From NCBI GenBank assembly GCA_000469685.2, contig LS997565.1, forward strand, positions 48,013,836-48,077,835: a stretch of DNA of 64,000 nucleotides, read 5' to 3'. Position 1 is the stretch's first letter. Every line of letters begins with the position of its first letter. Below are positions 22,067-47,077 of this stretch, piece by piece. The notes under the pieces are model-generated. The model was not told where the DNA came from, did not search any database, and saw only the letters and a program-made list of their open reading frames with translations. The DNA is from Haemonchus contortus (lineage: Eukaryota > Nematoda > Chromadorea > Rhabditida > Trichostrongylidae). The position numbers were made by a program, and so were the translations under genes.

Positions 22067-24770
22067 TCAGATATACTCTGGAACATGCAAAGTTCGCAAT
22101 AAATCCATCTTGCTCAGCCTTATTTTGAATATTCTGCTGTTGGGTGCTTGAAGTACCTCAGACGGAAGCAGTTCAAGCCACCTGGCACAACGATAGAAAA
22201 AATTGTTGAACATCAAAGAGTACTGCCTAGGATGAATGTTGGCGTAGTGAAGGTTGAAGCCACCCAACCTTTCACTTGTGGGTTTGAAGCACCAGTACTT
22301 ACTAGCACGCAGCTTTACCTCTTTTCGAAGTACCCTGAAGCAGAGCACTAGATCAGCCGCTACGCGTCTGTATTGCAAGGACTTGAGGGAAAAGCGTTCT
22401 AGGCGCGCGCCGTACGAGGGTAAACGGGGTCGGTCAACACAAGGTGTCGACCTAAACCAAAGAATACGCGTGAATACGCGCTGGACCCGTTCTATCCTGA
22501 GGATATCTTTTTTGAGAGATGGGCTCCATACCTGCGAGCAATACTCCAGATAGGGTAAGACATAAGTTTTGTAAAGACGCAGTAGTATGGTTGAATCAGA
22601 GCATTTGATGTTCGTCGTCAACGCGAACATGGCGGCGAATGCTTTTTTTACAGCCTCATCAATTTGGTCAGAAAACTTGAGAGTTTTGTCAGAGATGATT
22701 CCAAGGTCCTTAGTCGAGTCACAAATTGGGAGTCTTATCCCATTTACGATGTAGTCCGTCGCAGCAGAGTTCCCAAAATGCATCACCAGGCATTTGCTCA
22801 GATTTAAGGGAATATCCCAGTCAGATGCCCATACTCTCATTTTCTCAACTGACAACTCCAGTGCCTTTTGTGTGGCTTCTCTATTTGAACATTCATACGA
22901 AGCGTACAGTTTAATATCATCAGCGTAGACTTGTACGTGGACATCGCTGCATGTTTTGAGTATTTGAGGCAACTCGATGGTGTATATCAAGAACAGCAAC
23001 GGTGATAGTACTCCACCTTGATGAACCCCACTGGTACAGATGAATTCAGAAGAGTAACTAGTACCAACCCGAACCGTTATGCTCCTGTCATTAAGGTACG
23101 ACCTTATCCAGTCAAGGGCTTTACCACGAATTCCGTAGTGTTCCAGTTTGTTAATGAGCTTAGGATAACAGACTTTATCAAAAGCTTTGGAGAGGTCGAG
23201 ATGAATAATGTCTACAGACTTTCCACGGTTTATAGCCCAGCAAACATCATACAGAGTATCGAGCAAGTTAGTACATGCAGAAGCCCCGGGTAGAAAGCCG
23301 TGCTGCTCAGCCGGGACGAGGTGGAACTTCTGAAACCAGGCTAGAAACTTTCCAAACATAATTTTCTCCATGACTTTAGCAGGGGTAGGCGTAAGGCTGA
23401 TAGGTCTGAAATCAGTAACACTAGCAGCTCCAGGGTGCTTCGGAATGGCAGTAATAATAGCTTTCTTCCAAAGACAGGGGACCTGTCCCAGAAGGAAAGA
23501 TATATTGAACAAGAAGGAAAGTGGATAACATAGTGAGTGACAGCATTTTTTGAAAACGATCTGAGGTATACCATCGAAAGGCTCACTAGTTGAAGGCTTC
23601 AAATTTTTCAGCACCAAACGAACGTCAGTAGGGTGAAAGTATATGTCGGGCAGGCTACGGTAGATATGCTTCAAGCTATTTCCTACGTCACCATCACAAG
23701 CACTCGCATCCAAGAAGACACTAGCGAAATATCGACCCAGAGCTTCAGCCTTAGCAGAGTCATTATGGAGATTCGACCCAGCTTGATCTTTTAATATAGG
23801 AAGGGATGGCTTGGGCTTAAGCTTGTTTCGAAGGTAAAGGTGCAGCCGACGCAACGAAGCAGTTCTACCAAAGCGACGCTCGTAGCTGGCAGCAAACTTT
23901 TTCAAATGGTAGTCAACGTCAGAGCAGACCTTTTTATAAAGCGGAGAACTCAAAGGGTAATCCAGTTCCTGGAAAAGGCGTTCCTTCTGGAATAGTAGGT
24001 TTTAGGCAGAGACGTAATGCTCAAATAAGTGGAGCCAATCAACATTCCGGAAGTACTCATCGAGACCAGCATAGTCAACGGAGGAAAAATTGGGGAAGGG
24101 AAGATAACATGCACGACCAAGCTCTTCAAACAATTTGAAGTGAACAACGTTGTGGTCTGAATTCGCCAGAGGAGCTGACACCGTAACATCTCTTATGTTG
24201 GAAAACGTAGACAGAACTAAATCGAGAATGCTATTGCCATGTGTCGGTACATGTACATGCTGCTGAAAGCCCATCTCTTGGAAAAATTCCAGAAAGGCAT
24301 TTGACGATGGATTAAGTGCGTGGTGATGCTCCCAGTCGATTGAAAGGTTAAAGTCTCCTACAATGACGTTATTGGCCTGGGACGAGACAAAGTCACGGAG
24401 TTGTCGAATTAGTTCTTCATCTTCACTCTTCAAGGAATTCGGTGGACGATACACAGCTGCAAAACGGATCCGAGACGCGTTACGAGGGCAGAATAGCTCA
24501 AAACAGAGCACGTCGGCTTTGGTTAAGCGAGTCACTTCGATAGGGAAAGTGAGAAGGTTGCCTTTGATTAGGCACCACCCCTTCGTTCTTTCCGATCACT
24601 GCGAAAAAGTACATAAGGCAAGTTAGCAACTATTTCCGAATCAAGAATGGTGGCCGTAAGCCACGTCTCAGTTACTATTAGAAGGTCTGGCTCTTCTTGA
24701 CAAATAAAAGCATGTAAATGTTCAAGCTTATTCGTTAGGCTACGGGCGTTTAGCAGGAAGCAGGTTAGGG
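22067..24770 (-). pseudogene. LINE ORF2 copy A: endonuclease-reverse transcriptase, broken
   Basis: The endonuclease starts with LTCFLLNARSLTNKLEHLHA and PDLLIVTETWL. A one-base loss at RRGG shifts the frame near 24575 (the first frame ends there in TAA). It continues FAAVYRPPNS, NVIVGDFNLSIDW and SDHNVVHF. At 24002 there is TAA where copy B continues; copy A lacks 105 bp (35 codons) present in B at about 45844-45950. Downstream, in the same frame, comes the reverse transcriptase: DFRPISLTPTPAKVMEKIM, HLDLSKAFDKV, GVHQGGVLSPLLFLIYTIEL (copy B has the canonical PQG) and YADDIKLYAS, then the C-terminal domain ending LRTLHVPEYI at 22067. Frameshift, deletion stop and P-to-H change make it inactive. 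Confidence 0.85.
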
Positions 24771-24788
24771 CAGTTTGACCGTGCGCCG

Positions 24789-25463
24789 CTAGAGGTTTCC
24801 CGAGCGTCTGTGCGGTAATTCAGATACATGTTTCAGTTGCCCCTGGTAGACAACCCACTCGCGAAGAGTTTTGCCCTTGTTTCGCTCGCGCGCCTGCTGA
24901 CGTAACTCACTCTCGCGTTTTCTTTCGTCTTCGGTCATGCTTCTGCGGATGAAGACGTTGGACAACCCGGCACCGCGAAGTAAGCGTGCGTTAGCCAGAG
25001 CCCGCCGCCAATGAGTCCTGGTAGGCAGAACCACCTTGACAAGACGCGGGCGCTCAGGGTCTGGCCTGCCCATCCGGTATACCTCAGCCGGTCGACATTC
25101 GACGTTCAATACATCTAACACAGCACTAACCTTCTCTTCCAAATCCTTCTGACGGGTTGAAGCCGGAGCCGCACCTTGGATCTCATCAAGGCCGGAGATG
25201 ACAATGCTTCGGGTGCGTTTATCACTCTCAATAAATTCGGAAAATTCCGTTGGAATTTTTTCGGAAAGAGCGATAAGCATATTGCCGATCACCGGATCCT
25301 GATTTAGCTCCATTATATTTTTTATAAGCTCCATAGCCGACATGTTTTTGAACGTAGGTGCCGGAGAACTAGGTGCAGGCTGCGTACCACCCCTCCCACT
25401 CGAGGTAGATGGGGGCTGCGAGGAAGCGGAGCTTTTCTTGGGACGCAGTTCTTTTGGGGGCAT
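24789..25463 (-). CDS. LINE ORF1 protein, copy A (RNA-binding, L1-ORF1-like)
   Basis: First ATG at 25463 gives MPPKELRPKKSS and 224 residues; the frame is open further upstream but without ATG. Low-complexity basic, Ser/Pro-rich N-terminus (residues 1-35), a middle with DPVIGNMLIALSEKIPTEF, then an RRM-like block RSIVISGLDE, YRMGRPDPERPRLVKVVLP, and a basic C-terminus (SMTEDERKRESELRQQARER). This layout resembles ORF1 proteins of L1/CR1-type elements, which bind the element RNA. The frame is open in all three LINE copies and the protein is identical in A, B and C as far as I can read. No CCHC knuckle is visible. Confidence 0.75.
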   Translation of the reverse strand: MPPKELRPKKSSASSQPPSTSSGRGGTQPAPSSPAPTFKNMSAMELIKNIMELNQDPVIGNMLIALSEKIPTEFSEFIESDKRTRSIVISGLDEIQGAAPASTRQKDLEEKVSAVLDVLNVECRPAEVYRMGRPDPERPRLVKVVLPTRTHWRRALANARLLRGAGLSNVFIRRSMTEDERKRESELRQQARERNKGKTLREWVVYQGQLKHVSELPHRRSGNL

Positions 25464-26142
25464 CTTTGTGATCTTTGATTTACCAGAAGTAGAGTCAATA
25501 CCCAGGGGCCTTACCAACTTGCCGAGAAAGAAAAAAAAACTAGTTAGTAACCAAAAAAACTAACACCAAAAACTATGTATTAAAAACAAATTTTGAAGTC
25601 TAATATTTACCTAAAATGTGGTCTAACAAAAAGCTTATAAAGTAGAGAACGATGTACAAAAAAATTAAAATAAAACACAAGCTCACGGGAAGACGACCGG
25701 TCGCTGCGCGTGCAGATGTTGTTGATTCTGAGGAAACCGGAATAAAAGCTAAGTAAGGTATCAGTAGTGCTGCTGGGCAACTTTGACTGCAACGACCTAC
25801 GTTTGTATAGTAATGTATAGCCCTAAAGACATAGATTATATGCTCAATTGTGTTTTAGCGCTTGGAGGAGATCAAGCCTAATTTCAATCGGAGATCCTTC
25901 GAACAATTTCATGATACTGCCCAACCACTAACAATTTTTCAAGCTCCTTTCACTCACTAGCAAGCCTCATGCTAATCTTTCTTTAATCACGTTTGACTCT
26001 TCTTTTCTCCGACCTGACCATGATGGGTACCTTCTGCAGAGTTACGACATCATCCCGGCGCCCACCTCAATAGACAGTATTGCACTCCCATCCGGGAACT
26101 CATCCACTCTCAGTGCTTCCTTGCCCTGAATCCGCGCAAATA

Positions 26143-26372
26143 TAATACTATAAAGAAAAACATCGCCTTATCACTCGGCGATGAGCTGATTGTGTGTGGG
26201 TCCAAGAACAAACAGCTGCAATCTGTACTGTCTCGACACTCGTCTGACATGACATCGATCGAGGAGCGGAAAAGCGGATCAAGACAGCAACAGGGCTTCC
26301 TCTATGCTCTGATCGTCGAGATTTTAGAAGAGAGGGGGTATCTTCTACCACCTATGGGGGCCATTGAGTATT
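26143..26372. other. Insert ahead of exon 3, present in units 2-4 but not unit 1
   Basis: Unit 1 runs from the GGGATGCGCGCAAA area (5656) to the next conserved block without this DNA. In units 2, 3 and 4 about 230 bp follow GAATCCGCGCAAA. A minus-strand-independent open frame on the plus strand reads SLGDELIVCGSKNKQLQSVL and ends VEILEERGYLLPPMGAIEYF before TGA at 26377; it has protein-like composition but I recognise no family. Its left edge coincides with the A/T step used later as the Helitron target in unit 3. Confidence 0.5.
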
Positions 26373-28396
26373 TCTGAGGGAAAAACTCAGTAACCATTTC
26401 TATCGTGAACCATTCCTTTGATAGATAGAATCATCCCTTTGTGAGATAGAATCTAGTGCTTACCTACATCAACTTTTTGCCAATGTCAGAGCCATTCTGA
26501 AGCTTGTCTGACGGCCTACTTCGCTCAATGTACACTGCTAATCCACCAAACGTTTTCTCATTGCATGTAGGCTGCGCTCTCTTTCTGTGCTCCCTACCCA
26601 ACCGGAATCTCCCCCCCCCCCCATCAGTCAGATAGGTCTGATCTTGAAGCGAGTCAACAAACACTTCCACATACAGTTTTTCTGATAGAAGCAGCAAATT
26701 CGACTGGAAGAGTGAACGGAGATCTATTTTGTTTAGATATGGATACAGAGAAATGTATTTATCATCGTAGCTATCTAGTATGGTGTATCAATTGCCGCAG
26801 TTGCTTACACTGTAACATCGAAAAATTTGTACACTCAAAATGAAGACGGAACATACAAGTTCCGAGGATTAGATCCAAACGTAGCAATGGTTAGTTTGAA
26901 GCATTTTCGAGAAGTGAAGTGAATTATTGAATTGCTAAGGGTTATTCTGAGTTGAACTCAGTACTGGTTGTGTAAGAAAATTGAACCTCTACTATTGTAC
27001 GAAACAGTCTAATCTTACTTTCAGGACTGGTAATTATGCTTACATTGTGCATAGGAAGAGATCACAGTGCTACATGTTTCTAGAAACTGTAACCTAAGTT
27101 AATCTTATAGCGTAATGTACTTCTTCTTGAAACATAGTAATCAGTGAACCACATAAGTGATTCTTAATGACCTTTCGAAGAAGGAACAGGCAATATCAAT
27201 TTGAACGAACATGCTTGAGTTTTGGAAACACTCACACACAAATGTGATTTCCTGCGCTTTCTATCAGCTTTCAGTGATCAACCGGTTCTTCCTGGAAGAT
27301 AGTGGGAAACTTGCTCTTCTATTTCTCGCACACCAAAGACATGCAAAAAAATGAGCCCAGTAGGGCAGGAGCGAGAAGATGAGCGGGTTTTTAGCTTAGT
27401 GCGCGAGGTATTTCTGCATCTCACTTACCTAGGTGCACCTACCACCCCGAGACCTAGTAAAACATCTTTACCCCCTGGTGCCCACATTTCTTTTCGTCTC
27501 TGATGAAGTGCTAGATTAGCAAGGATTGGCACGTAATCTCGCGTTAATTTTTTGTTATACTAAGACTGTTATGTGTGTTCCCTCCCCCCAACTATATTTT
27601 TGTTTCCTTTGGTTGTCATCCTTTCGTGTGGGGAAAAATAATGAACCAGTTCTGCAATGTATAGAAGAGAGTAACCAAACAGTGCGCCACAAAAAAGACA
27701 TGGACAGTAGAATGTTAGACACACCGTGAATATGTTTTTACAGATCACCGGATGTATTTCTTTGATCATTGGTGTCGTTTGCTTAGTTACAAATTTTGTT
27801 ATGAATGTGAAACTGTTTGTCACATGGCGGAATTTGCTGAAGAATGAAGACAGATCAACTGCGCGCCATACTGAAAAGGTAAGGTAACCAGCTACCACCG
27901 ACACCCTATTCGGCTGCTAGCAGGTGACCGAGTCATGTCTTATGCTAGCTCTAGTTTGCCAGCAAAATAGCTGTAATTGTTAAAGCTGTTTTGATAAGGC
28001 CGGATGAAACTGTAGCGATACGAACATACTCCGGCATACTGACGTCATTGAACCTACATGAAAATTCTACACTTGAAGAATAGTCCTTGAATGGCCTCAA
28101 GTAATGAAAAATGTTTAATTCAGGGTCTACTAATGTACACAGTAATCGCTTTCACTTTGATAATGGTGATGTGCACAGTGGATTTTCTATATGCAGTCTC
28201 TTCCGCGACTAAAAATTATGGACTGTTCACATGGTTGAATGATAGTGTAAGTTTTCTAACCTATCGTTCCTTTAATTTCCATGCTCATTTCACAGTAGCA
28301 GTGTTGTATTAACCGAATCAGCCTACCTAAATTTGGATCACGTACTTTCTCCGTCGTTGAAATGCTGCTCTGCTAGGATTCATAACCACAAAGAAG

Positions 28397-29220
28397 CATG
28401 TCGCAAATTAGTTGCGTAGGACAATGAGCTCCTCACCTGGGCTGGTGTTGTTATTCTGGCACGCGTCAGTGCGGTCCTCTCTGGAGTAGCCCCAAATTGA
28501 TGCGGGAGCCTACAGAATGAGGGTACTGTAGCAGGTATGTTGTGGCACTCATTGCCTTAATCCACCTGCACCTGCGAACTCTACTACGTCCGGCTGTCCG
28601 TATGGGCGTGCTACCTCTTAAGGTATAAACTACTGACTACATAAATACTGCATGAGATTATAACCCAAAGAGCATTCGATATGGAAGGGACTTGCCCATC
28701 TAAGTATTATCAAAGAAACAAGACATAAATATAATAAAATTCATCTTCATACACGAATGAGCGATATAAAAAACCTACGGGCACGCTTCTTTGTCACCAG
28801 GAGACTTCGGCACCCGCTGCCCTCGGGGAAGGAGACAAGCACAGTGTCCGCGGACGTCTTTGAGGTCCCTTGGTGCGCGCGTTCCCCACGACCTGCAGTT
28901 AACCATAGCTGCCCGGTGGCAGCTAGCAGCCCGTTCTCCGTCCGTGGTACTGGTGCCTGCGATCATTTGTCCCCCTTGCTGACGAGGCCGGTTGACGACG
29001 ATGACTATGCGCTAGGAGAAGAGTCGATCGAGCGATTCTCGACATGGAGAAGAGCGGCAAAGGTGTTGCGTGCACACTTCGCGGCGCCCAATGCCGCGTG
29101 GCAATCGGTGTGAACGGCCCGGAGCGTGATGGGTGGAAACGGTGCTGCGCGTCGAATAATGAGAATGCCATGCGGTAACAGCCCTTTGCATAGATGGAAG
29201 TCGTAGGCTTTACAACAAGC
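28397..29220. other. GC-rich insert in intron 5 of units 2 and 3
   Basis: Unit 1 has nothing between its counterparts of CATAACCACAAAGAAG and AGGCGCCCTGCTAAA, while units 2 and 3 (mirror 31377-32200) carry about 820 bp. The inner part (28790-29130) is clearly richer in GC than its surroundings and has long open frames on both strands, a composition effect rather than evidence of a gene. It could be a captured fragment or a non-autonomous transposon; I see no terminal repeats. Confidence 0.55.
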
Positions 29221-30227
29221 AGGCGCCCTGCTAAATTAGAAGCTGAAGCAGTAACCGTGGACAGGCTAGCTCTCCTGCGCGTACGCTTTGCTTGTAAGTC
29301 CATTCTTCACACAAACCTGGCGTCAGAGAAGAACCCGATGTGAGGAGAATAATGAAGTTGTGACGGAGGGCTCGGTATCAAATTTGCAAAATTGTTGGCG
29401 AATACTCAAGTCATTAATTCTATTCTGTTTAATTTGTCGAGCAGCATTACAGCAGCATTATATCAGCATTAAAATCTTCAAGAGGTAATTTTGAGCAGTT
29501 TTTAGGTGTTCTGGATAAACGATTTTTTGGTCTTTGTGCCTCCGCTTTCTCTGATGCTGTTCTCCGCGGATCTTCGCCACGCTATTCTGAAGGTCTTCCT
29601 CAGAATGAAGTCACCAACTCTTGTTACTCCAGTTTCACGTTCTTTGCGTGGAGGTCAGAGTTTTGTTCAAGGAGCATAGGAAAGATGGAGTTACATAGGA
29701 AAAGAATGGCTGGTGATGAATTTGAGAGCGCGATGGTGGCACCAAGTTCCTTTTCAAAGAAATAGCCCCTATAAAAATTCTTGTGATCAATATTTTTCTG
29801 AATTATTGCTCTGGAAAGTAGCAGTGAATAAGAGATAAGCACAGAATATACGAAACAGCTGGCTTATCGCAAAGATTTGGAAGAAAAGGAAATGTGCAGA
29901 AAGGGGGCAAAAAGAATTGTCCTACGGGCAATAAGCTCCTTCCATAACTCTTTTGGGATACATTTTATTACAAGGAAGAGTTCCGTTTATTGGGCTTGTA
30001 CAACCACGAAACGTTACAGTGATTAAGAATATCATTCGACAACTTTTTAAATTTTCAGAGTAAGAAATGAATGAACTGCGAGCCGATATAGTACAGCATT
30101 AATGAGGAAAAATTACGAAAGCTGAACAATGTTGCGGCGATGTGACGGCGCTCCTGTTGTTGTTCCTTGCATATCTGGAAATCACTATTTATCTCTCCAT
30201 AAAGTATCACATATGATTAACTAGGGC

Positions 30228-30490
30228 AGAGGTGGCGTAATGGTATGTGCCGCACTATCTTACAGGCACGATCACGGGTTCGAATCCCGGCTCGGTATCC
30301 GCCTAGGCCGACCAAGCCTTTCATCCCTACGGGTCCGCTTTAATGGTACCAGATCAGTCTGGGAGGATAGAATCACTGACTTGTACATCGGCTGGCCACC
30401 GCAAGCCATTGTATAAGCCACATGCGCAATCACTACGCCACTGCGACTATGAATGGAAGTCGACTGCATGAAGATGCATGAATCTCTTGA
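30228..30490 (+). mobile_element. tRNA-derived SINE, unit 3 copy
   Basis: The head has RNA polymerase III-type boxes: A box GTGGCGTAATGGT (30234) and B box GGGTTCGAATCCCGG (30278), with a perfect CGGG/CCCG T-arm stem. The acceptor ends do not pair, so it is not a functional tRNA. The body contains TACGGGTCCGCTTTAATGG and GCCATTGTATAAGCCACATG. It is the counterpart of 10400-10700. It is antisense to the unit 3 receptor, as in unit 1. Confidence 0.7.
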
Positions 30491-30917
30491 ACAGAACTGT
30501 TTAAGGCCCTAGCTCTTTAGACTTATATAAACAACTGCAATTGAGATGTACGCCATCAAGCACTGAAGTTTTTGAATTAACGTTGAACTATGTTCTCTAG
30601 GAACTGGTTGTATAGGATATTTTGCTCTAAGGTCATGCTCTGAAATTTTCAGACATCATGTCTGAAGGCACAGTAAACGATACTTGAGGTACCTGGTCAT
30701 AGACGAACAATGGCAGTAATAGTCAACTGGACTTAGCATAGGAGATTCTATTCTGTGCTTATCTCTTATTCACTGCTACTTTCCAGAGCAATAATTCAGA
30801 AAAATATTGATCACAAGAATTTTTATAGGGGCTATTTCTTTGAAAAGAAACTCGGTGCCACCATCGCGCTCTCAAATTCATTAACAGCCATTCTTTTCCT
30901 ATGTAACTCCATCTTTC

Positions 30918-33860
30918 CTATGCTCCTTGAACAAAACTCTGACCTCCACGCAAAGAACGTGAAACTGGAGTAACAAGAGTTGGTGACTTCATTCTGAGGA
31001 AGACCTTCAGAATAGCGTGGCGAAGATCCGCGGAGAACAGCATCAGAGAAAGCGGAGGCACAAAGACCAAAAAATCGTTTATCCAGAACACCTAAAAACT
31101 GCTCAAAATTACCTCTTGAAGGTTGTAATGCTGATATAATGCTGCTGTAATGCTGCTCGACAAATTAAACAGAATAGAATTAATGACTTGAGTATTCGCC
31201 AACAATTTTGCAAATTTGATACCGAGCCCTCCGTCACAACTTCATTATTCTCCTCACATCGGGTTCTTCTCTGACGCCAGGTTTGTGTGAAGAATGGACT
31301 TACAAGCAAAGCGTACGCGCAGGAGAGCTAGCCTGTCCACGGTTACTGCTTCAGCTTCTAATTTAGCAGGGCGCCTGCTTGTTGTAAAGCCTACGACTTC
31401 CATCTATGCAAAGGGCTGTTACCGCATGGCATTCTCATTATTCGACGCGCAGCACCGTTTCCACCCATCACGCTCCGGGCCGTTCACACCGATTGCCACG
31501 CGGCATTGGGCGCCGCGAAGTGTGCACGCAACACCTTTGCCGCTCTTCTCCATGTCGAGAATCGCTCGATCGACTCTTCTCCTAGCGCATAGTCATCGTC
31601 GTCAACCGGCCTCGTCAGCAAGGGGGACAAATGATCGCAGGCACCAGTACCACGGACGGAGAACGGGCTGCTAGCTGCCACCGGGCAGCTATGGTTAACT
31701 GCAGGTCGTGGGGAACGCGCGCACCAAGGGACCTCAAAGACGTCCGCGGACACTGTGCTTGTCTCCTTCCCCGAGGGCAGCGGGTGCCGAAGTCTCCTGG
31801 TGACAAAGAAGCGTGCCCGTAGGTTTTTTATATCGCTCATTCGTGTATGAAGATGAATTTTATTATATTTATGTCTTGTTTCTTTGATAATACTTAGATG
31901 GGCAAGTCCCTTCCATATCGAATGCTCTTTGGGTTATAATCTCATGCAGTATTTATGTAGTCAGTAGTTTATACCTTAAGAGGTAGCACGCCCATACGGA
32001 CAGCCGGACGTAGTAGAGTTCGCAGGTGCAGGTGGATTAAGGCAATGAGTGCCACAACATACCTGCTACAGTACCCTCATTCTGTAGGCTCCCGCATCAA
32101 TTTGGGGCTACTCCAGAGAGGACCGCACTGACGCGTGCCAGAATAACAACACCAGCCCAGGTGAGGAGCTCATTGTCCTACGCAACTAATTTGCGACATG
32201 CTTCTTTGTGGTTATGAATCCTAGCAGAGCAGCATTTCAACGACGGAGAAAGTACGTGATCCAAATTTAGGTAGGCTGATTCGGTTAATACAACACTGCT
32301 ACTGTGAAATGAGCATGGAAATTAAAGGAACGATAGGTTAGAAAACTTACACTATCATTCAACCATGTGAACAGTCCATAATTTTTAGTCGCGGAAGAGA
32401 CTGCATATAGAAAATCCACTGTGCACATCACCATTATCAAAGTGAAAGCGATTACTGTGTACATTAGTAGACCCTGAATTAAACATTTTTCATTACTTGA
32501 GGCCATTCAAGGACTATTCTTCAAGTGTAGAATTTTCATGTAGGTTCAATGACGTCAGTATGCCGGAGTATGTTCGTATCGCTACAGTTTCATCCGGCCT
32601 TATCAAAACAGCTTTAACAATTACAGCTATTTTGCTGGCAAACTAGAGCTAGCATAAGACATGACTCGGTCACCTGCTAGCAGCCGAATAGGGTGTCGGT
32701 GGTAGCTGGTTACCTTACCTTTTCAGTATGGCGCGCAGTTGATCTGTCTTCATTCTTCAGCAAATTCCGCCATGTGACAAACAGTTTCACATTCATAACA
32801 AAATTTGTAACTAAGCAAACGACACCAATGATCAAAGAAATACATCCGGTGATCTGTAAAAACATATTCACGGTGTGTCTAACATTCTACTGTCCATGTC
32901 TTTTTTGTGGCGCACTGTTTGGTTACTCTCTTCTATACATTGCAGAACTGGTTCATTATTTTTCCCCACACGAAAGGATGACAACCAAAGGAAACAAAAA
33001 TATAGTTGGGGGGAGGGAACACACATAACAGTCTTAGTATAACAAAAAATTAACGCGAGATTACGTGCCAATCCTTGCTAATCTAGCACTTCATCAGAGA
33101 CGAAAAGAAATGTGGGCACCAGGGGGTAAAGATGTTTTACTAGGTCTCGGGGTGGTAGGTGCACCTAGGTAAGTGAGATGCAGAAATACCTCGCGCACTA
33201 AGCTAAAAACCCGCTCATCTTCTCGCTCCTGCCCTACTGGGCTCATTTTTTTGCATGTCTTTGGTGTGCGAGAAATAGAAGAGCAAGTTTCCCACTATCT
33301 TCCAGGTAGAACCGGTTGATCACTGAAAGCTGATAGAAAGCGCAGGAAATCACATTTGTGTGTGAGTGTTTCCAAAACTCAAGCATGTTCGTTCAAATTG
33401 ATATTGCCTGTTCCTTCTTCGAAAGGTCATTAAGAATCACTTATGTGGTTCACTGATTACTATGTTTCAAGAAGAAGTACATTACGCTATAAGATTAACT
33501 TAGGTTACAGTTTCTAGAAACATGTAGCACTGTGATCTCTTCCTATGCACAATGTAAGCATAATTACCAGTCCTGAAAGTAAGATTAGACTGTTTCGTAC
33601 AATAGTAGAGGTTCAATTTTCTTACACAACCAGTACTGAGTTCAACTCAGAATAACCCTTAGCAATTCAATAATTCACTTCACTTCTCGAAAATGCTTCA
33701 AACTAACCATTGCTACGTTTGGATCTAATCCTCGGAACTTGTATGTTCCGTCTTCATTTTGAGTGTACAAATTTTTCGATGTTACAGTGTAAGCAACTGC
33801 GGCAATTGATACACCATACTAGATAGCTACGATGATAAATACATTTCTCTGTATCCATAT
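30918..33860 (-). pseudogene. Chemoreceptor gene, unit 3 copy, exons 3-6 only
   Basis: Minus-strand exons: 33708-33860 (exon 3), 32719-32853 (exon 4), 32351-32473 (exon 5), 30918-31091 (exon 6). They mirror unit 2 and share its exon 3 nonsense codon (CTA at 33819-33821 on the plus strand), so the stop predates the palindrome. Exons 1 and 2 are absent because unit 3 is truncated at 47077, inside the LINE of intron 2. The Helitron is inserted upstream of exon 3. The copy cannot make a receptor. Confidence 0.8.
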
Positions 33861-34682: not shown

Positions 34683-34741
34683 GGGGGGAGGGGGGGTGGG
34701 GGGGGGAAATATTTTCGGCTAAACACACACACACACATACA
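34683..34741. repeat. G-rich run and CA microsatellite inside the Helitron
   Basis: 34683-34707 is a nearly unbroken run of G on the plus strand, a potential quadruplex. It is followed at about 34721-34739 by a CA dinucleotide repeat. Both lie between the two Helitron 3' termini. Confidence 0.7.
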
Positions 34742-34811
34742 CTTCGTGAGCGCCTCACCCATCATGAATTTAGTTCGGCTCAACTTATTTGTTCAAAAAA
34801 GCAGTTGGGCT

Positions 34812-34829
34812 GCGCACGATACCGTGCGC
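34812..34829 (-). other. Second, internal Helitron 3' terminus
   Basis: The same hairpin (GCGCAC, loop, GTGCGC, extendable by one pair) recurs 347 bp inside, followed on the minus strand by GCCCAACTGC. Its last four bases are CTGC instead of CTRR, so this end looks inactivated. The subterminal sequences of the two ends remain similar (compare 34483-34600 with 34830-34950). Confidence 0.8.
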
Positions 34830-36017: not shown

Positions 36018-39000
36018 CTACAAAACATTTTTGTAGACAATATTCTTGATTTTAGTTTTCGATGAAAGAACTTTCACTGAGTCAGCATTCCGAGCTCTCG
36101 ATAGCGCAACATATAGTTGCCCATGAGAGAATACATCTTCGGGTAGATATATTCCAACTTTTGTCAGAGTCTGGCCCTGAGCCTTATTGATCGTAGTAGC
36201 AAAGGCCAAGCGAACTGGAAATTGTCGCCTTCGAAGTCGAAAGGGAAGTCCTTGATCTGTGTAGAGATCTATTCGAGGGATGAGAACAAATTCGTTTTTC
36301 CTTATTCCAGTAGCAAATCTGCAACCCAACACGTATTGTCCACATTGATCAACAATAAGTCTTGTTCCGTTGCAAAGGCCTTTGGATACGTCAAGATTAC
36401 GGAGCAGCATAACGATGCATCCTTGCTTCAGCTTGAGCTCGTGCGCAGGCATCCCACTTGGCTGCAACCTGTTCAGATGCTCCACTTGATAACTGAGTAA
36501 GTCATCCGGGTCTGCATTTTCCACTTCGTCAATGCTCTTGTATACTTTGAGTTCCAGATGCACAGGCATTCGCTCCAGCGCGAGATCGTTCATGTGCGCT
36601 ACATGAATATTTTTTGGAGCAAGTATTGCCTTTTCCGCTAGCTCTGCTATGCCGTCTACTTCAATGGTATCACCAAAAACTTCACGGATAAGGTCTCCTT
36701 GGCTATTGAGGGTGGAAGGCAGTTCGATATAACCAAACTCATCTTCTGGATATGTTCCTCCTTCTGTATCAGCATCCTTGCCCATTCGCCACTGTCTGCT
36801 GTAGCCCTCATATTGATTGAAAGATGATAGGTGGTAAAGTTTTGCCACAAATGAGACTTCTTTATGCATGCGTTTTCCAAATCTTCTTGTCGCCCTCTTT
36901 CAACAACTGGGAGGACCTGTCGAAAGTCTCCCCCTACAATCATAATTTTGCCTCCGAAAGGCGAATCGTTTTGCATAATATCCCTCAGCAAAAGATCCAC
37001 CGCCTCCAATGTCCACTTAGGCACCATCGAGATTTCATCCCAAAAAATAACGGAAACATCATGCAGTGCCCTCGCCTCTGTTGACTCTCTTGTCATTGTG
37101 CTTGTCTTGCAGCCATCGTGAATGTTCAACTTGAAGGTGCTGCTTGCAGTTCTACCTCGAGGAAGCAGATTAGCAGCAATACCCGTCCAAGCCACGCATA
37201 TAACGTTTTTTCCTTTTCCAAGAAGGGTATGGTACAGAGCTGTATACAAAAACGTTTTCCCACTTCCACCCGGACCATCAATGAAAAAATGTCTTCCAAC
37301 ATGTCGAGCATCTATTGTTTGCAAAATGGCGTCTGCTGCTGATCTCTGATGAGCATTCAAATTATCAAGCAGTTCCCTCCCGCGGGCTGCATGTTCTGTT
37401 TCCGTTTCATAATCTTCATCGATATAACCTGGCCTTCGAGAGGCAGGAGGAGGGATGAAATTTCTTAAATTCACTCCACTTATCTGTAATCTGTCCGCAA
37501 TGTCATAGTATGCTCGGATTACTGCTTCATCGTCGCTCATGCCACGATGCACGTAATCTTCTGCCATGACTGACTTAAACCGTTCCCATAGCTGCTCTGG
37601 CTCTGTGACATCGCAAAAGCAAATAAGGCTGCTGAAAAGTGATCGCAATTCTGGCGGCATTCGGAACGCTGCTGCTTCTCTAAGGCAACTCTCGTAATGC
37701 GAATCATCGTGCATCAGCCCAAGAGCCTTTGCGGCCTCTTTGAAGCTACTGTAGGTCGACCCGCTTACGGTTCTGAGTTCATCAAATGACTTGGCTCCCC
37801 TTCTGTTAAGAAGAAGAAGTCGAAGGCTGTAACGCTCCACATCTGAAGGGTTTGCCGTGTACATTCTTCCTATCTCACGACCATATTTCTTTCTTGCAGT
37901 CCACTTTTTAGTTTGCTGATTGAACGTGAAATGTTCTGGCAGCTGAACATAGAGTAGTGTTCGAGCGTCCACTTGCCCTTGCGGTGCATTTCCAGCTCCG
38001 TATGCGACCTCATGCTCTGCGTTCAGCTTGAAATAAGCTGTGAGAGTTGTGTCGCGCTCTGAGGCACGGCGGAGAGCTTCTTCCTCTTGACCACCTTGGA
38101 ATACCACGCCTTCCTGTTCTGGCAGATGCACCTGCAATCTGTAAACAGTGTGAGATTTGGACTGCAGATCGAATCCCAACAATCTGTGCACAGATTCTGG
38201 CGCACAGACATATCTAGCATTTATAAAAGCGTCGATTTCGTTAAAAGCCCCTTCTTCTCCGTTTGTTCTTATCATATGCAGTGCCGCTCTATCTGGGCCT
38301 TTATATACGTATTTGTAAATATACTTCACCGCGTGAATCATAGCACAGATCTCGACATTCAAATGTCCGCCATAGCGCAGTGCTAAGTACCTATTATATG
38401 GAACTACAGACCTATTGTCCAGTGTTGTGTTTCCATACTCGACGATCCTGCCATCGTTTGGTCGCCGATAATCGGGGTAGCCGTCCACCTCTATATTCGT
38501 ATACTCTCTGAATTGTTTAGGATACCCTTTTGTACACTGACCATTTACCATGCACGGCGAACTTGGATTAGCTGGACCGCAGGGCCTATGCATCATGCAA
38601 GTCGTTACAATACGATGGAGTCGTGGCTCCGTTTCAGGATCGGGTATTACAGCTTGCACAATGGCGTCCACTTCAGCGGCACTCCCTGGCTTATCATCTC
38701 CGGCCAATGTCAGTAAGATATGACAGTGAGGGAGCCCTCTTTTTTGCCACTCCATCACGCTGATATGAGCAACCACAGTTCCGAATAATTTCCGTTTGAA
38801 GAGATCTGTGTACAGTTCTTGCAATTTAATATGGAATACGCGGGCGACAATGTCGGGGCGATCGGAAGCTGTTTGTCCCAGAAATAACTATTCCACTATC
38901 TCCCTCCATGCCGGGTTGCAAGTGAATGTAATGAATAGATCTGGCTTTCCATATTTGGCAACAATTGCCATGGCATCTTGATAGCTTTGCACCATAGCTC

Positions 39001-40759
39001 GAGGAGATCCAGGGAACGACGAAGGCAGAATAATTCTCCTCATCCCTGGTGGGCCTGCGATGTCTGTATCTCCTGCGACATAGTCAGCCAATCCACGGTA
39101 TGTGTCTGCTCGCAGTTCCCTCTGGTGTGTTCGATCATAGTTCAAACGATTTTGTTCGACTTTCACATAGCTGTCTACCAAAAATTGCTGATACAATTTG
39201 CCGCAGAAGTGTAGAGGGTTGAATCCGGCTCTCACAGCTATCATATTAGAATAGTACTCTTTCTGAGTTATTCTTGTTCTTCGCCGCTCCGATGGGTTTT
39301 TTCTCATGTTTGGATGCCAGCCAAGCTCGCCACGAGGAAACAAAATCGGGTAGGAAAGTGGATCACATCCGGCATCATAGACGCGGATATTCCGCAGGCC
39401 TCCCGATCGTAAGTGCACGGCAAGGTTGTGTTCAACTGGCACGTCCCCTTCTTCTCCAACGTAAACTACAGCTACTTCGTTTGCTGTCGGCTCATTATAA
39501 CGACGTGGATCCAAATTCGAGCCTTGAAAGATCATTTTTACCGGCATCGCTGATCTTCTTTCCCTTGCAGCTCGAGCCTCCTCTTCGAGAGCAACGTCGT
39601 TAAGCATTCTGTATGCTTGTGCAAAAACATTAATCGCATGGAAAAGTGTGCTAAGTGACCGGATCAGTCTGGGGTTGCAACTTATGTTAGCTGGATTCCC
39701 TGCTCTTTCATCTGCCGCCATTGATGTGTCAAGAATGTACACCTGGCCGTATCGCGGCGGCTCACCTTCCTCTGGGAGTGCAGGTCCAATCCTGTGGTAA
39801 AGTTGACCGTGTATGCGAAAACAGTAAGGCCCTCGCCCTGGAATATCCAGCTGAGCTCCAATGGATGCAAATGCAAAGGCACTGTTGTAATTGCGGATAT
39901 GCTCACGGAATTCCTTCGCCTCGGCATCTTGACCTGTTAGTAATTGACGGAGTTCTTCTGGGTAGTGGGTGAAATGTTCTAATGTTATGGTTCCATGATT
40001 ACAACAGTCATTGAAAGTTCTCCTGCCCCCTTTCGACTCGGATCTGAAGTGCCTGGCTCCACAGCTCTCACATACAACATTCATAGGCCCGTCGTAGTGC
40101 TCCTCCGGTTCAATATTAGAGCGGGCTATAAATCTAGTCCCATCTGCCGCTGTTCCAGCTCCTACCTGTCGTCTCCAAGATCTCCTTCGTTCCGCTTCTT
40201 GAGACTGTCGAGCTCTCCGCTGCTCTTCGCTTTCTTGCTCTCTTGAGACTCTTGCTCTTTCAGCAGCTCTTTCCAGACGGGCTCTCCGCTGTTCATCTCC
40301 TTCCTGTTCCATTCGCATTCTAGCTCTCTGAGAGTCTGCAGACAGGCGTGCTCTTCGCTGCTCTTCGCTTTCTTGCTCTCTTTGCACTCTTACCCTTTCA
40401 GCGGCTCTTTCCAAGCGGGTTCTTCGCTGCTCTTCTCCTTCCTGTTCCCTTCGCGTCCTTGCTCTCTGAGATTCTGCAGAAAGGCGTACTCTCCGCTGCT
40501 CATCGCTTTCTTGCTCTCCTTGCATTCTTGCCCTCTCAGCAGCTCTTTCCCGACGGACTCCTTGCTGTTCTTCTCCTTCCTGTTCCCTTAGCATAGTAAC
40601 CCTTATCGCAGCTCTTGCCAAGTGAGCCCTTCGTTGTTCTTCAACTTCTTCACGTCTTCGTATTCCAAATGCTTCGTTTTCGCGCGGAAGACGACGTCGT
40701 TGATCTCGCTCATCTCGTGGCCTTTGCAATCTTGCCCTTCTTGAACAACTACTCTCCAT
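36018..40759 (-). pseudogene. Helitron Rep/helicase (RepHel) gene with one stop and one frameshift
   Basis: Minus-strand gene starting at ATG 40759. Residues ~1-200 are a charged repeat (units such as REQESEEQRRARLS alternating with REQEGEEQRRTRLERAAER), probably coiled coil. A zinc-binding block CESCGARHF ... CCNHG follows. The Helitron-like N-terminal domain runs to NPAWREIVE, where TAG (38888-38890) interrupts. The frame continues with the Rep domain: HUH motif GLPHCHILL and tyrosine motif AVKYIYKYVYKGPD. Then the PIF1-type helicase: Walker A GPGGSGKT, Walker B FWDEISMVPKW, IVGGDFRQVLPVVERG. A frameshift near 36770 separates this from the C-terminal part with GCIVMLLRNLDVSKGLCNGT, NKAQGQTLTKVGIYLPE and LYVALSRARN. 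The protein nicks, unwinds and transfers DNA in rolling-circle transposition. With two lesions it is probably inactive, though otherwise complete. Confidence 0.9.
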
Positions 40760-42900
40760 TTGTTTTCTGATATCTCGTGTTTCTCACCTCTTTTCGCTGC
40801 TATTGCTTTTATTTATCCCGGTCGTCCTCTTAAGACTTCGAAATGACTTCTTACACGTCCACTCGCTATCCTCTGCAAAGAAGGGTCACTTTAGGTAGAA
40901 GAACAAATTAGGTTTCTTTCTAATGGCTTTATCCAGAAACGAAAATTGGGTGTAAGAGGATTGTTAGTCATCTTGGCCTCAATTCCAAGGTTTCTCTTTT
41001 CGTTTTTTGTTCATTTCTTATTTCTCAGCTTTTCTCGATTTTGCAACGACCTTGAAGGTGGTAGGGCAATTTTTTTTCTCCTCCTCTCACCTCAACGAAT
41101 AACAATTGTTAGAGCGTTTTCTCGCACCGAACATTGTGAAATCCCTGCTGATACATTAAAAAATTACGACGGATAGAACACTCGTTTGGCCTCTTAGTAA
41201 TGTCTTATCCAACACTAAATAGGTCCCAGTTTCCCTCATTGTTAGTGGTAAAGCTATAAACGCAACATTGACTAAAATCTCAGTTCAAAAGATCAAACGA
41301 CAGATAATAGCGTTTCATCGAATTTTAGCCACTGCACTTCAATTTGGAACTTGTTCCCGAATTGACGCCTTTTCTAGCATTATGTACTATGCTAATTCTC
41401 GGAACAGTTATTCTAGGCCAGTTCACTTCTATTTTCAAAAATCTAAGAACGACATGCATGAGCCCAGTCTGGCATATACAAATTTTAGCTTCTCTTCTAA
41501 TCACTCCTCGAAAAGAAGGAATTGAGGGACGATTTCCTTCAAAGTTGATTAGTTCCAAAGGTTTGCTCCCTTACGTAACATCAACTCATTTTTATTCCCT
41601 TTTCATACTCGTTTCGCTCTAAATTCTGAATCTAACCCATGTAGGGGCGTCGCTTCGAGCGAAAAGTTGAAACTAAACAAATGCTTTGAAACCTTTCAGT
41701 CGTCTGATACTCTTCAAGAACCCACGCGTTAACTGCAGGTTCCGACTTCGCGTTAAACCACTGTTCCCTTTCCTGTTATGCCTCATCTAATTACCTGATA
41801 CTGTTTATGAAAAAGGGTAGCTGGCCTTTGACGCGACCGATAGTGAAAATTTTTATGGTAAGAGGAAATGCAAAATTATAACGTGAAGTGTACAAATGAT
41901 GCACTCAAGAAAAGTATCGTACCTTGCAAATAAGCTATCGCTGCGAAATGTACAGGTGAAAAAATATATGCCTTGAGATGTGGTGTTGAGCCAAAAACTG
42001 TAGTATTAAAATGTAAATTCGAATAAAATCACTTCAGTATCGAAGCCACAACAAAAATAGACTAAGAAACTGGTCTTAAAATACAATGAGCTTTTATGTG
42101 GTTGGGCTCAAAAATCGTAATACATAAAAATTAAAATGACCTTAGACCTTAATTAATTGGCATTAGGGTATGAGTGCTGAAAAGGGTCGTAGAGGATGAA
42201 AGCAAGTCTACCTTGAAACAGCCAGAGCATTGAGCCCAGAGCGTCAGAATTGAAAAATGTAGCGAGAAGCTGGTTACGATTTTAACTCATGGATTTATCT
42301 TATGGTTATGGTTTGAGGTGTTATGTCGAAGAGAGGTACAGAACAAAAGAAATAGAAAGATAAAGTCCCATTAAAATTGAAGCAACATTCGTTATTAAAC
42401 TAATTTGCACTCATGATTTATCGAAAGTGAGAGTCATCATAGCACAAAGCCTCACAATATCTGGAGAGTCCTATGATTAACTTCAATATCGTTCCGTATA
42501 AACACGTGAAGAAGCGTATCATAGTGCTAAGTGACTGAAAGCCAACACAATCCCACGTCACAATTGCTAAGGTACACTACTGATAGAGTGGTATATTTTA
42601 CTGCAAAAGTCGAAGGGTGGGTAATATCCCAAAAAGAGAGGGTTGTGGTACAGTACACTGCAGCTGGTTCCTCAAGAACAGTGTCAAAGAATGTCCAGTT
42701 GCGCGCACCTGGCGATTTTTTTTGGTTGACTTCTGGAGTGAGTCGAACAACTGGTAGACAAAGAAATTGCCCTTCGAGCATCAAATAGTAGATTGCAAGT
42801 AGTCGCCATTACTGTTCGGATAAATCACAATTATTGGTGCTGACGAAACAAAAACAATAGCCAACCAATTTTTTCGCTAACACTCATTTTTCATGTGTTT
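40760..42900. other. Helitron 5' non-coding region
   Basis: About 2.1 kb upstream of the RepHel ATG, AT-rich, without a supported gene. It should contain the promoter. Short hydrophobic open frames near 40946-41176 and 41344-41622 look like composition effects. Confidence 0.45.
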
Positions 42901-42906
42901 TTCTAG

Positions 42907-43440
42907 CTCTGCACTTTCCAACGCTAGCACACTCGGAAAATAAGTAGAATCGGTGGCGTATTTCAGTGTTTCGTAGTTGTCCGGGTTGCTGTCAGGAAAA
43001 GTGAGACCCAATTTTTATGCATTTTCGGCATCTCTTCACTTTCTAACGCTACCACATTTAGAAAGAGGAGTCGAATCGATGGCGTATACTAATATTTCAT
43101 AGTTGTCCAGGTTGCTGTCAGGAAAAGTGTGGCTGATTAGCAGTCCTTTCACTGACACCCAATTTTTATGCATTTTGGTAACTTCTCTGCTAAATTTGAA
43201 CGCCTCAGGTCCAAGTGACTATTTTTGAGGAAACCCGGCCCCCAGGAGGCGGAGTCTACACCTGTCACCTACCACTGGTTTCCCATCTCCCCGCCTACAT
43301 CTCTGCCAAATTTGAACGACCCAGGTCCAATTTGACTGTTTTTGAGGAAACCCGGCCCCCACTGGGCGGAGTCCACACCTGTCACCTACCATTAGTGTTC
43401 TCATCTTGCCGCCTACATCTCTGCCAAATTTGAGTACTCT
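42907..43440. repeat. Two sets of tandem repeats near the Helitron 5' end
   Basis: Set 1: about 125-bp units beginning near 42907 and 43032, each with a TTTCBAACGCTA-like start and the shared GTTGCTGTCAGGAAAAGTG. Set 2: about 117-bp units beginning at 43185, 43301 and (partial) 43419, each with CTCTGCYAAATTTGA and the shared TTTTTGAGGAAACCCGGCCC and GGCGGAGTC. They lie within 0.8 kb of the Helitron 5' end. Confidence 0.8.
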
Positions 43441-44387
43441 ACGCTCAGGAGCAAAGGAGTTACAGATTTACCGCGAACTACACTATTCTTGCAAGCCCCG
43501 CTCCTATTGGGCGGAGCCTAGCTTAGATCACGTGTACCCAAGGAGTTTGGCTCATTTTCCACTTGTTCTTCCTCAGTCCCCACATGTTCCAACCTGTCTG
43601 AGCTGTTCCACGTGTTTCGACGCCCTAGATAGTGATAAGATAGTTACATTGATAAGGACACACAAACATACAGAAAAACGGACATTTGTGGTTTATATAT
43701 AGTAAGGATATTTGCGCGGATTCAGGGCAAGGAAGCACTGAGAGTGGATGAGTTCCCGGATGGGAGTGCAATACTGTCTATTGAGGTGGGCGCCGGGATG
43801 ATGTCGTAACTCTGCAGAAGGTACCCATCATGGTCAGGTCGGAGAAAAGAAGAGTCAAACGTGATTAAAGAAAGATTAGCATGAGGCTTGCTAGTGAGTG
43901 AAAGGAGCTTGAAAAATTGTTAGTGGTTGGGCAGTATCATGAAATTGTTCGAAGGATCTCCGATTGAAATTAGGCTTGATCTCCTCCAAGCGCTAAAACA
44001 CAATTGAGCATATAATCTATGTCTTTAGGGCTATACATTACTATACAAACGTAGGTCGTTGCAGTCAAAGTTGCCCAGCAGCACTACTGATACCTTACTT
44101 AGCTTTTATTCCGGTTTCCTCAGAATCAACAACATCTGCATGCGCAGCGACCGGTCGTCTTCCCGTGAGCTTGTGTTTTATTTTAATTTTTTTGTACATC
44201 GTTCTCTACTTTATAAGCTTTTTGTTAGACCACATTTTAGGTAAATATTAGACTTCAAAATTTGTTTCTAATACATAGTTTTTGGTGTTAGTTTTTTTGG
44301 TTACTAACTAGTTTTTTTTTCTTTCTCGGCAAGTTGGTAAGGCCCCTGGGTATTGACTCTACTTCTGGTAAATCAAAGATCACAAAG

Positions 44388-45062
44388 ATGCCCCCAAAAG
44401 AACTGCGTCCCAAGAAAAGCTCCGCTTCCTCGCAGCCCCCATCTACCTCGAGTGGGAGGGGTGGTACGCAGCCTGCACCTAGTTCTCCGGCACCTACGTT
44501 CAAAAACATGTCGGCTATGGAGCTTATAAAAAATATAATGGAGCTAAATCAGGATCCGGTGATCGGCAATATGCTTATCGCTCTTTCCGAAAAAATTCCA
44601 ACGGAATTTTCCGAATTTATTGAGAGTGATAAACGCACCCGAAGCATTGTCATCTCCGGCCTTGATGAGATCCAAGGTGCGGCTCCGGCTTCAACCCGTC
44701 AGAAGGATTTGGAAGAGAAGGTTAGTGCTGTGTTAGATGTATTGAACGTCGAATGTCGACCGGCTGAGGTATACCGGATGGGCAGGCCAGACCCTGAGCG
44801 CCCGCGTCTTGTCAAGGTGGTTCTGCCTACCAGGACTCATTGGCGGCGGGCTCTGGCTAACGCACGCTTACTTCGCGGTGCCGGGTTGTCCAACGTCTTC
44901 ATCCGCAGAAGCATGACCGAAGACGAAAGAAAACGCGAGAGTGAGTTACGTCAGCAGGCGCGCGAGCGAAACAAGGGCAAAACTCTTCGCGAGTGGGTTG
45001 TCTACCAGGGGCAACTGAAACATGTATCTGAATTACCGCACAGACGCTCGGGAAACCTCTAG
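44388..45062 (+). CDS. LINE ORF1 protein, copy B
   Basis: Same 224-residue protein as copy A (ATG at 44388): basic Ser/Pro-rich N-terminus, RRM-like centre with RSIVISGLDE and RMGRPDPERPRLVK, basic C-terminus. No lesion seen. It is followed directly by the ORF2 frame, which overlaps the ORF1 stop and has no ATG nearby, so ORF2 would depend on frameshifting or re-initiation. Confidence 0.75.
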   Translation: MPPKELRPKKSSASSQPPSTSSGRGGTQPAPSSPAPTFKNMSAMELIKNIMELNQDPVIGNMLIALSEKIPTEFSEFIESDKRTRSIVISGLDEIQGAAPASTRQKDLEEKVSAVLDVLNVECRPAEVYRMGRPDPERPRLVKVVLPTRTHWRRALANARLLRGAGLSNVFIRRSMTEDERKRESELRQQARERNKGKTLREWVVYQGQLKHVSELPHRRSGNL

Positions 45063-45069
45063 CGGCGCA

Positions 45070-47077
45070 CGGTCAAACTGCCCTAACCTGCTTCCTGCTA
45101 AACGCCCGTAGCCTAACGAATAAGCTTGAACATTTACATGCTTTTATTTGTCAAGAAGAGCCAGACCTTCTAATAGTAACTGAGACGTGGCTTACGGCCA
45201 CCATTCTTGATTCGGAAATAGTTGCTAACTTGCCTTATGTACTTTTTCGCAGTGATCGGAAAGAACGAAGGGGTGGTGCCTAATCAAAGGCAACCTTCTC
45301 ACTTTCCCTATCGAAGTGACTCGCTTAACCAAAGCCGACGTGCTCTGTTTTGAGCTATTCTGCCCTCGTAACGCGTCTCGGATCCGTTTTGCAGCTGTGT
45401 ATCGTCCACCGAATTCCTTGAAGAGTGAAGATGAAGAACTAATTCGACAACTCCGTGACTTTGTCTCGTCCCAGGCCAATAACGTCATTGTAGGAGACTT
45501 TAACCTTTCAATCGACTGGGAGCATCACCACGCACTTAATCCATCGTCAAATGCCTTTCTGGAATTTTTCCAAGAGATGGGCTTTCAGCAGCATGTACAT
45601 GTACCGACACATGGCAATAGCATTCTCGATTTAGTTCTGTCTACGTTTTCCAACATAAGAGATGTTACGGTGTCAGCTCCTCTGGCGAATTCAGACCACA
45701 ACGTTGTTCACTTCAAATTGTTTGAAGAGCTTGGTCGTGCATGTTATCTTCCCTTCCCCAATTTTTCCTCCGTTGACTATGCTGGTCTCGATGAGTACTT
45801 CCGGAATGTTGATTGGCTCCACTTATTTGAGCATTACGTCTCTGCCGACGATGCATATGCCAGGTTCTGTAATGTTGTCTATAGAGGCTTAGCGGGCTTC
45901 GTACCAATAAAGTTCCCGAAATCTTCCATCATAAGGTATCCACCACAGATAAAAAACCTACTATTCCAGAAGGAACGCCTTTTCCAGGAACTGGATTACC
46001 CTTTGAGTTCTCCGCTTTATAAAAAGGTCTGCTCTGACGTTGACTACCATTTGAAAAAGTTTGTTGCCAGCTACGAGCGTCGCTTTGGTAGAACTGCTTC
46101 GTTGCGTCGGCTGCACCTTTACCTTCGAAACAAGCTTAAGCCCAAGCCATCCCTTCCTATATTAAAAGATCAAGCTGGGTCGAATCTCCATAATGACTCT
46201 GCTAAGGCTGAAGCTCTGGGTCGATATTTCGCTAGTGTCTTCTTGGATGCGAGTGCTTGTGATGGTGACGTAGGAAATAGCTTGAAGCATATCTACCGTA
46301 GCCTGCCCGACATATACTTTCACCCTACTGACGTTCGTTTGGTGCTGAAAAATTTGAAGCCTTCAACTAGTGAGCCTTTCGATGGTATACCTCAGATCGT
46401 TTTCAAAAAATGCTGTCACTCACTATGTTATCCACTTTCCTTCTTGTTCAATATATCTTTCCTTCTGGGACAGGTCCCCTGTCTTTGGAAGAAAGCTATT
46501 ATTACTGCCATTCCGAAGCACCCTGGAGCTGCTAGTGTTACTGATTTCAGACCTATCAGCCTTACGCCTACCCCTGCTAAAGTCATGGAGAAAATTATGT
46601 TTGGAAAGTTTCTAGCCTGGTTTCAGAAGTTCCACCTCGTCCCGGCTGAGCAGCACGGCTTTCTACCCGGGGCTTCTGCATGTACTAACTTGCTCGATAC
46701 TCTGTATGATGTTTGCTGGGCTATAAACCGTGGAAAGTCTGTAGACATTATTCATCTCGACCTCTCCAAAGCTTTTGATAAAGTCTGTTATCCTAAGCTC
46801 ATTAACAAACTGGAACACTACGGAATTCGTGGTAAAGCCCTTGACTGGATAAGGTCGTACCTTAATGACAGGAGCATAACGGTTCGGGTTGGTACTAGTT
46901 ACTCTTCTGAATTCATCTGTACCAGTGGGGTTCCTCAAGGTGGAGTACTATCACCGTTGCTGTTCTTGATATACACCATCGAGTTGCCTCAAATACTCAA
47001 AACATGCAGCGATGTCCACGTACAAGTCTACGCTGATGATATTAAACTGTACGCTTCGTATGAATGTTCAAATAGAT
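45070..47077 (+). pseudogene. LINE ORF2 copy B: endonuclease-reverse transcriptase, least damaged but truncated
   Basis: Endonuclease start LTCFLLNARSL, PDLLIVTETWL, then the same one-base loss after ERRGG near 45280 as in copies A and C. From there the frame is open to 47077: YRPPNS, GDFNLSIDW, SDHNVVHF, the linker missing from A and C (45844-45950), then FRPISLTPTPAKVMEKIM, LDLSKAFDKV, GVPQGGVLSP and YADD. The RT thumb and C-terminal domain are missing because of the junction. The open frame runs on through 35 codons of chemoreceptor exon 2 to a stop just past 47181, a chimeric frame without likely function. Confidence 0.85.

Follow-up and report, generated by a model that had tools for sequence, protein, structure and literature searches.

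A probably young inverted triplication in an Srv chemoreceptor cluster of the Haemonchus contortus reference assembly

The stretch of DNA analyzed here (the window) consists of the 64,000 nucleotides at C4:48013836-48077835 of Haemonchus contortus, on a chromosome that we take to be an autosome; coordinates outside 1-64000 are given on the scale of the window. It contains a chemoreceptor gene of the Srv family, part of which is repeated in the left-to-right order copy 1 (+), spacer, copy 2 (-), copy 3 (+). An intron of the gene carries a long interspersed nuclear element (LINE), and copy 2 is interrupted by a Helitron transposon. The segments are as follows (TM, transmembrane segment):

21142..29848, + strand: copy 1, the template copy, extending left into the old flank (from self-comparison; the flank 18345-21264 is collinear with paralogues)
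21297..25724, - strand: LINE retrotransposon in the receptor intron, with RVT_1 and Exo_endo_phos_2 domains; ends approximate, site empty in the paralogue
29849..30748, no strand: spacer of 900 bp
30749..34453, - strand: inner part of copy 2, the inverse of 29848-26143, with the TM7-TM4 exons at 30921-33818
34454..43708, - strand: Helitron of 9255 bp interrupting copy 2, with Helitron_like_N and PIF1 helicase domains
43709..47076, - strand: outer part of copy 2, the inverse of 26142-22880, mostly LINE
47077..52482, + strand: copy 3, a direct copy of 21142-26547, with 105 bp of the TM3 exon, the LINE, and intron

The inverted repeat pairs 22880-29848 with 30749-34453 plus 43709-47076, with 12 substitutions in 6967 bases in a piecewise ungapped recount. 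In self-BLAST, 26143-29848 aligns in inverted orientation with 34453-30749 (99.76% over 3706 bp), 24005-26158 with 45846-43692 (99.68%, the final 16 bases entering the Helitron), and 22880-24003 with 47076-45953 (99.82%). Because the arms, about 41% of which is LINE, match over kilobases at such identity, a chance origin of the palindrome is impossible. An earlier note had described this palindrome with coordinates that are off by at most one base (the arm end is 47076, not 47077); however, in treating it as a simple two-armed structure, the note missed the third, direct copy, which adjoins copy 2 at 47076/47077 and in which 47077-52482 repeats 21142-26547 (99.78% over 5407 bp in self-BLAST). 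The note also passed over a LINE stretch whose length differs among the copies and a small palindrome to the right of copy 3, both described below. The core 22880-26547 is present in three copies and is flanked by parts present in two, 21142-22879 in copies 1 and 3 only and 26548-29848 in copies 1 and 2 only. Within the reference assembly, the structure has the order duplication (DUP), inverted triplication (TRP), duplication.

Receptor exons were located by comparison with paralogues and then mapped with tblastn:

19111..19242, + strand: Srv exon TM1, outside all duplicated segments (tblastn)
21091..21246, + strand: Srv exon TM3; the left end of copy 3 falls within the homologous exon (tblastn and paralogue comparison)
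26779..26883, + strand: Srv exon TM4, copy 1 (tblastn)
27744..27878, + strand: Srv exon TM5, copy 1 (tblastn)
28124..28246, + strand: Srv exon TM6, copy 1 (tblastn)
29506..29679, + strand: Srv exon TM7 with stop codon, copy 1 (tblastn and paralogue comparison)

Neither paralogue comparison nor tblastn resolved a TM2 exon in the copy 1 receptor. When joined, the copy 1 exons match Pfam PF10323 (7TM_GPCR_Srv) with 36.5 bits against a curated cutoff of 21 (E 4.5e-9), which bears out the chemoreceptor identity proposed earlier, and they also pass the cutoff for Srg (PF02118; 24.3 bits, cutoff 22). Single open reading frames, single exons, and combinations of few exons gave no Pfam chemoreceptor match above cutoff (one joined exon pair matched Sru and Srv, both below it), and the joined exons of the neighbouring gene gave no Pfam match. 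TM1 and the complete TM3 exon occur in copy 1 only. The receptor content of copy 2 is limited to the TM4-TM7 exons, with no difference from copy 1 in the 537 bases of these four exons; copy 3 has no more of the receptor than 105 bp of the TM3 exon, in which two amino acids differ. Both of these copies are receptor fragments, and so the earlier description of two receptors tail to tail holds for the orientation but not for the number of receptors, copy 2 having neither a TM1 nor a TM3 exon. A gene model at 30.9-33.8 kb would score a receptor fragment as a second gene.

The polarity of the rearrangement is given by a paralogous locus 127-131 kb downstream, which has the same order and contains no LINE, inversion, or Helitron. 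Segments 20659-21296, 25725-27421, and 27418-29848, together with the reversed spacer, match 151658-157591, and the LINE site is empty there (152294-152296). Because the paralogous locus has the same order without the inversion, the inverted structure is derived, and because the reversed spacer is collinear with that locus, the spacer is the natural continuation of copy 2. Since the paralogous locus lacks both the LINE and the inversion, the order of events was insertion of the LINE, triplication, and insertion of the Helitron into copy 2. The rearrangement is younger than the split between the paralogous loci, and the three copies differ by only 0.17-0.22% in substitutions, in agreement with the earlier suggestion of a recent event. 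As a separate observation, an insertion of ~1.24 kb, 79% related to 60729-61955, divides exon 1 of the paralogous receptor gene (148744-150121).

Three junctions delimit the copies, the last of which lies beside a small palindrome:

29848..29849, no strand: J1, inverted, with 3 bp of microhomology (ATA), as read by eye from a comparison with the paralogous locus, which is not the true ancestor
47076..47077, no strand: J2, inverted, no microhomology (by eye)
52482..52483, no strand: J3, from copy 3 to the flank (other cluster sequence), no microhomology (by eye)
52483..53475, no strand: small palindrome with 303-nt arms differing at 3 positions, around a dispersed palindromic repeat of ~387 bp

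We consider it probable that this is a young duplication-inverted triplication-duplication within the Srv chemoreceptor cluster. The inverted triplication, together with junctions of short or absent homology, suggests replicative template switching as its most likely origin. We infer replication as the mechanism, and also the order and direction of switching, along the following lines. With the LINE already resident in the receptor intron, a fold-back event of the microhomology-mediated break-induced replication (MMBIR) or fork stalling and template switching (FoSTeS) kind would have copied the locus, the strand turning back ~900 bp past its rejoining point (J1). Inverted synthesis would have proceeded through the locus to 22880 and then switched to 21142 (J2), and forward copying from 21142 to 26547 would have ended with rejoining of the flank at J3. 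The Helitron would have landed in the inverted copy afterwards, and copy 1 may have become a mosaic through later exchange between copies, or through templating from slightly different haplotypes. Several points weigh against this proposal. Copy 3 breaks off at J3 and the original right-hand flank is absent, so that at least one further junction or a later deletion is needed; the turns of 900 bp (J1) and 1738 bp (J2) exceed what is allowed for origin-dependent inverted-repeat amplification (ODIRA) in yeast; the mosaic of shared derived changes misfits one event without later exchange; a cluster of substitutions near J1, described below, could be consensus error; and the evidence is at the level of the assembly. 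We also considered a tandem triplication whose middle copy was later inverted, which is unlikely because the inversion would have to fall exactly at both junctions.

The dispersed repeat at the center of the small palindrome (52786-53172) has at least 39 other copies at 91-95% identity on C1-C6 in a genome search, and the palindrome arms include a TM7-like exon match (tblastn, E 0.004). This palindrome may have formed in the same event, as a further fold-back, or may predate it slightly. At J2, the LINE open frame of copy 2 (45256-47190) reads through the junction without a change of frame and continues in the truncated TM3 exon of copy 3 as far as the exon's splice donor.

Substitutions number 12 in 6967 bases between copies 1 and 2, 10 in about 5.41 kb between copies 1 and 3, and 8 in about 3.67 kb between copies 2 and 3. 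One stretch of the LINE has 106 bases in copy 2 and a single base in copies 1 and 3; the stretch is kept in all 5 of the other LINE copies aligned (at least 72 genome matches). Derived states common to copies 1 and 3 comprise this deletion and the sites 23022 and 25583, and those common to copies 1 and 2 comprise 26277, 26400, and 26441, at which copy 3 agrees with the paralogue; copies 2 and 3 have no derived state in common in the three-copy comparison. Because the two groups of shared states are not interleaved, a single point of exchange, located between 25583 and 26277, would be enough. It is probable that sequence has passed between the copies, as the shared derived changes suggest and as the earlier note had anticipated for the arms, or else that they stem from different haplotypes, and the data do not choose between the two; gene conversion may be the cause of the mosaic in copy 1. 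Conversion of copy 3 by the paralogous locus at 26277-26441 was rejected, as many intervening sites match copies 1 and 2 against the paralogue.

The same sites bear on whether the copies arose stepwise, with an inverted duplication first producing copies 1 and 2 and copy 3 following at a later time, derived from copy 1 or a different haplotype. Copy 3 has the LINE deletion of copy 1 and no substitutions relative to it in 22880-25650, and it keeps the older states at 26277, 26400, and 26441 as if templated from a different allele. We nevertheless regard a stepwise origin as unlikely, given that all three pairs are similarly diverged and that copies 2 and 3 abut at J2 with no leftover sequence. 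Less probable still is an old palindrome that was kept near-identical by arm-to-arm gene conversion rather than recently duplicated. The three derived changes common to copies 1 and 2 in 26277-26441 and the identity of their four shared exons would fit such a history, but all three copies carry the LINE at one and the same position, where the paralogue has none, and conversion would need to have spread this element as well. In addition, the direct and inverted pairs are equally close, and the Helitron has not spread.

Half of the substitutions between copies 1 and 2 (6/12) are crowded beside J1, within 29472-29749. A scan test gives P 0.0014 with a 377-bp window and 0.0004 with one of 278 bp, both windows having been picked after the data were seen. 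Donation by older paralogues near J1 was rejected, with only one of the four states private to copy 1 (29713) matching one of three paralogues. At 29715, copy 2 matches all three paralogues, and the polarity there is unsure.

Helitrons are characterized by a Rep/helicase gene, insertion between A and T, a 5' TC, a 3' hairpin followed by CTRR, and the lack of target duplication. The element interrupting copy 2 is a Helitron by these hallmarks: read on the reverse strand, it starts with TC and ends with CTGG after a GC hairpin (the hairpin identified by eye), and it is inserted between A and T without target duplication. No long near-identical copy was found among the matches listed (7001 of the 9255 bases searched, 36000-43000; best 39 candidates), where its relatives reach 79% over 4.1 kb, 89-91% in shorter parts, and 94-95% in pieces of less than 200 bp. 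The Helitron coding region also contains a tandem repeat with 69-bp spacing (40197-40610) that has a weak match to STPRs, and an array similar to this 69-bp repeat is present at C6:18213922-18222853.

The Helitron is also relevant to a possible misassembly, in which alleles or chimeric reads of pooled heterozygous worms would have been joined into a false palindrome. The assembly is described as built from a pool of worms in which two major haplotype groups occur, with a subread N50 of 10.3 kb (PMC7652881), the copies differ little, and J3 is followed, 37 kb further right, by a 5-kb N gap. Judged from the sequence, however, a false join appears hard to reconcile with a Helitron that interrupts copy 2, has its flanks inverted on both sides, and is without a long near-identical copy among the matches listed for the 7001 of its 9255 bases searched. 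The N gap lies inside a stretch collinear with the paralogous unit, and the one-sided 900-bp spacer looks unlike the product of a missed-adapter read. In missed-adapter reads, such a spacer is not expected. Sample amplification is not mentioned in the main text of the H. contortus V4 assembly paper (PMC7652881). Overall, we judge misassembly to be quite unlikely. The alternatives to a single replicative event are not fully exclusive of it, and the odds given to each need not sum to one.

The wider region is an Srv-like cluster (tblastn), in which stretches between -59 kb and 30 kb have collinear counterparts between 71 kb and 157 kb, offset by about 126-133 kb (the search being limited to offsets of 122-134 kb). 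Identity along this collinear run, which includes the N gap at 89501-94500, is 65-87% left of -23951 and then 98.3% over 43 kb, with an abrupt start. The block 105742-157591 was considered as an unpurged haplotype, but the flanks are collinear at 65-87% identity to the left and right of the N gap, which favors an old tandem unit. A haplotype switch inside the contig is possible, the jump to 98.3% at -23951/105742 being unexplained. The 98.3% block itself (-23951..29848 vs 105742..156687) may reflect either a large and recent copying event or a point at which the assembly changes haplotype.

Two further palindromes belong to the cluster:

53424..59245: older palindrome (U2), arms 79-85% identical
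C4:47929349-47935785: paralogue of the older palindrome (U1), also palindromic, arms 82-97% identical

When the four arms are aligned (1705 ungapped columns), grouping by locus is supported by 97 sites, vs 13 and 16 for the other two groupings. Arm-to-arm conversion after duplication of the unit would produce this pattern, the alternative being separate origins of the two palindromes. Whole-arm identities are mixed (80.6% within U2, 87.8% within U1, 76.1-81.3% between loci), and in a 714-column part the arms are 85.3% and 87.4% identical within loci and 81.8-82.7% between them. For the near-identical triplication, the grouping by locus lends something to the idea of an old palindrome maintained by conversion, but the identity between the two U2 arms is no higher than that of one U2 arm with the U1 arms (81.1-81.3%). 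We mention as a doubtful, though conceivable, extension that the Srv cluster may be a recurrent palindrome nursery, with inverted duplications that arose at different times (arm identities of 99.8%, 99%, and about 81-88%) and whose arms are still exchanging. If so, at least one inverted duplication would have formed around a palindromic repeat, and receptor ends would be evolving in concert. Tail-to-tail arms might also yield hairpin RNA with a silencing effect on related receptors. With population data, arm-to-arm conversion in this cluster could be tested on the older palindrome and its paralogue.

The closest counterparts of the triplication are the DUP-TRP/INV-DUP (INV, inverted) rearrangements described at human PLP1 and MECP2 (PMC4352052). 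As in those, an inverted triplicated core lies between duplicated segments with two inverted junctions, the joins are blunt or microhomologous (3 bp at J1, none at J2 and J3), and point changes occur near a junction, raised point mutation at junctions having been reported there (PMC4352052). In contrast, the H. contortus structure is of kilobase scale, comes from a nematode reference rather than from patients, and shows no long pre-existing inverted repeat at J1. In the human cases, the third copy continues into normal distal sequence and two junctions suffice, whereas here it ends at J3 (the equivalent of 26547), joined to other cluster sequence. By analogy, the H. contortus structure would work like DUP-TRP/INV-DUP, with strict membership not claimed. 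The inverted triplications attributed to ODIRA in yeast (PMC10766183) likewise have three copies with the middle one inverted, but their turns are described as under about 100 bp, compared with 900 bp and 1738 bp here. Turns of this length do not fit the expectation that ODIRA junctions lie at pre-existing short inverted repeats within about 100 bp. An ODIRA product is also expected to contain a replication origin.

Among nematodes, the earlier note's remark on the rarity of such arms agrees with the report that long inverted repeats are rare in general, but not with the near-perfect ones described between paralogous genes of Caenorhabditis, for which conversion was proposed (PMC1803023). The present arms resemble these in being near-identical within a gene family and in their convergent orientation, which is among the Caenorhabditis examples (PMC1803023); they differ in that one arm holds only a gene fragment, ~41% is LINE, and there is a third copy. 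Newborn duplicates in C. elegans are reported to be often adjacent and inverted (PMC2728529), and the copies described here are similarly adjacent, inverted, and structurally incomplete, but with resolved junctions, polarity from a paralogous locus, and three copies. The main text of the V4 assembly paper (PMC7652881) does not mention palindromes, inverted or segmental structures, Helitrons, chemoreceptors, or GPCRs (G protein-coupled receptors), and no title listed in literature searches deals with this locus, which is not proof of absence. Both this kind of rearrangement and inverted gene duplicates in nematodes are already known. The H. contortus case is an inverted triplication resolved to the base in the reference genome of a parasite, with its polarity given by an unrearranged paralogous copy nearby, and it illustrates one route to partial inverted copies in nematode chemoreceptor clusters.

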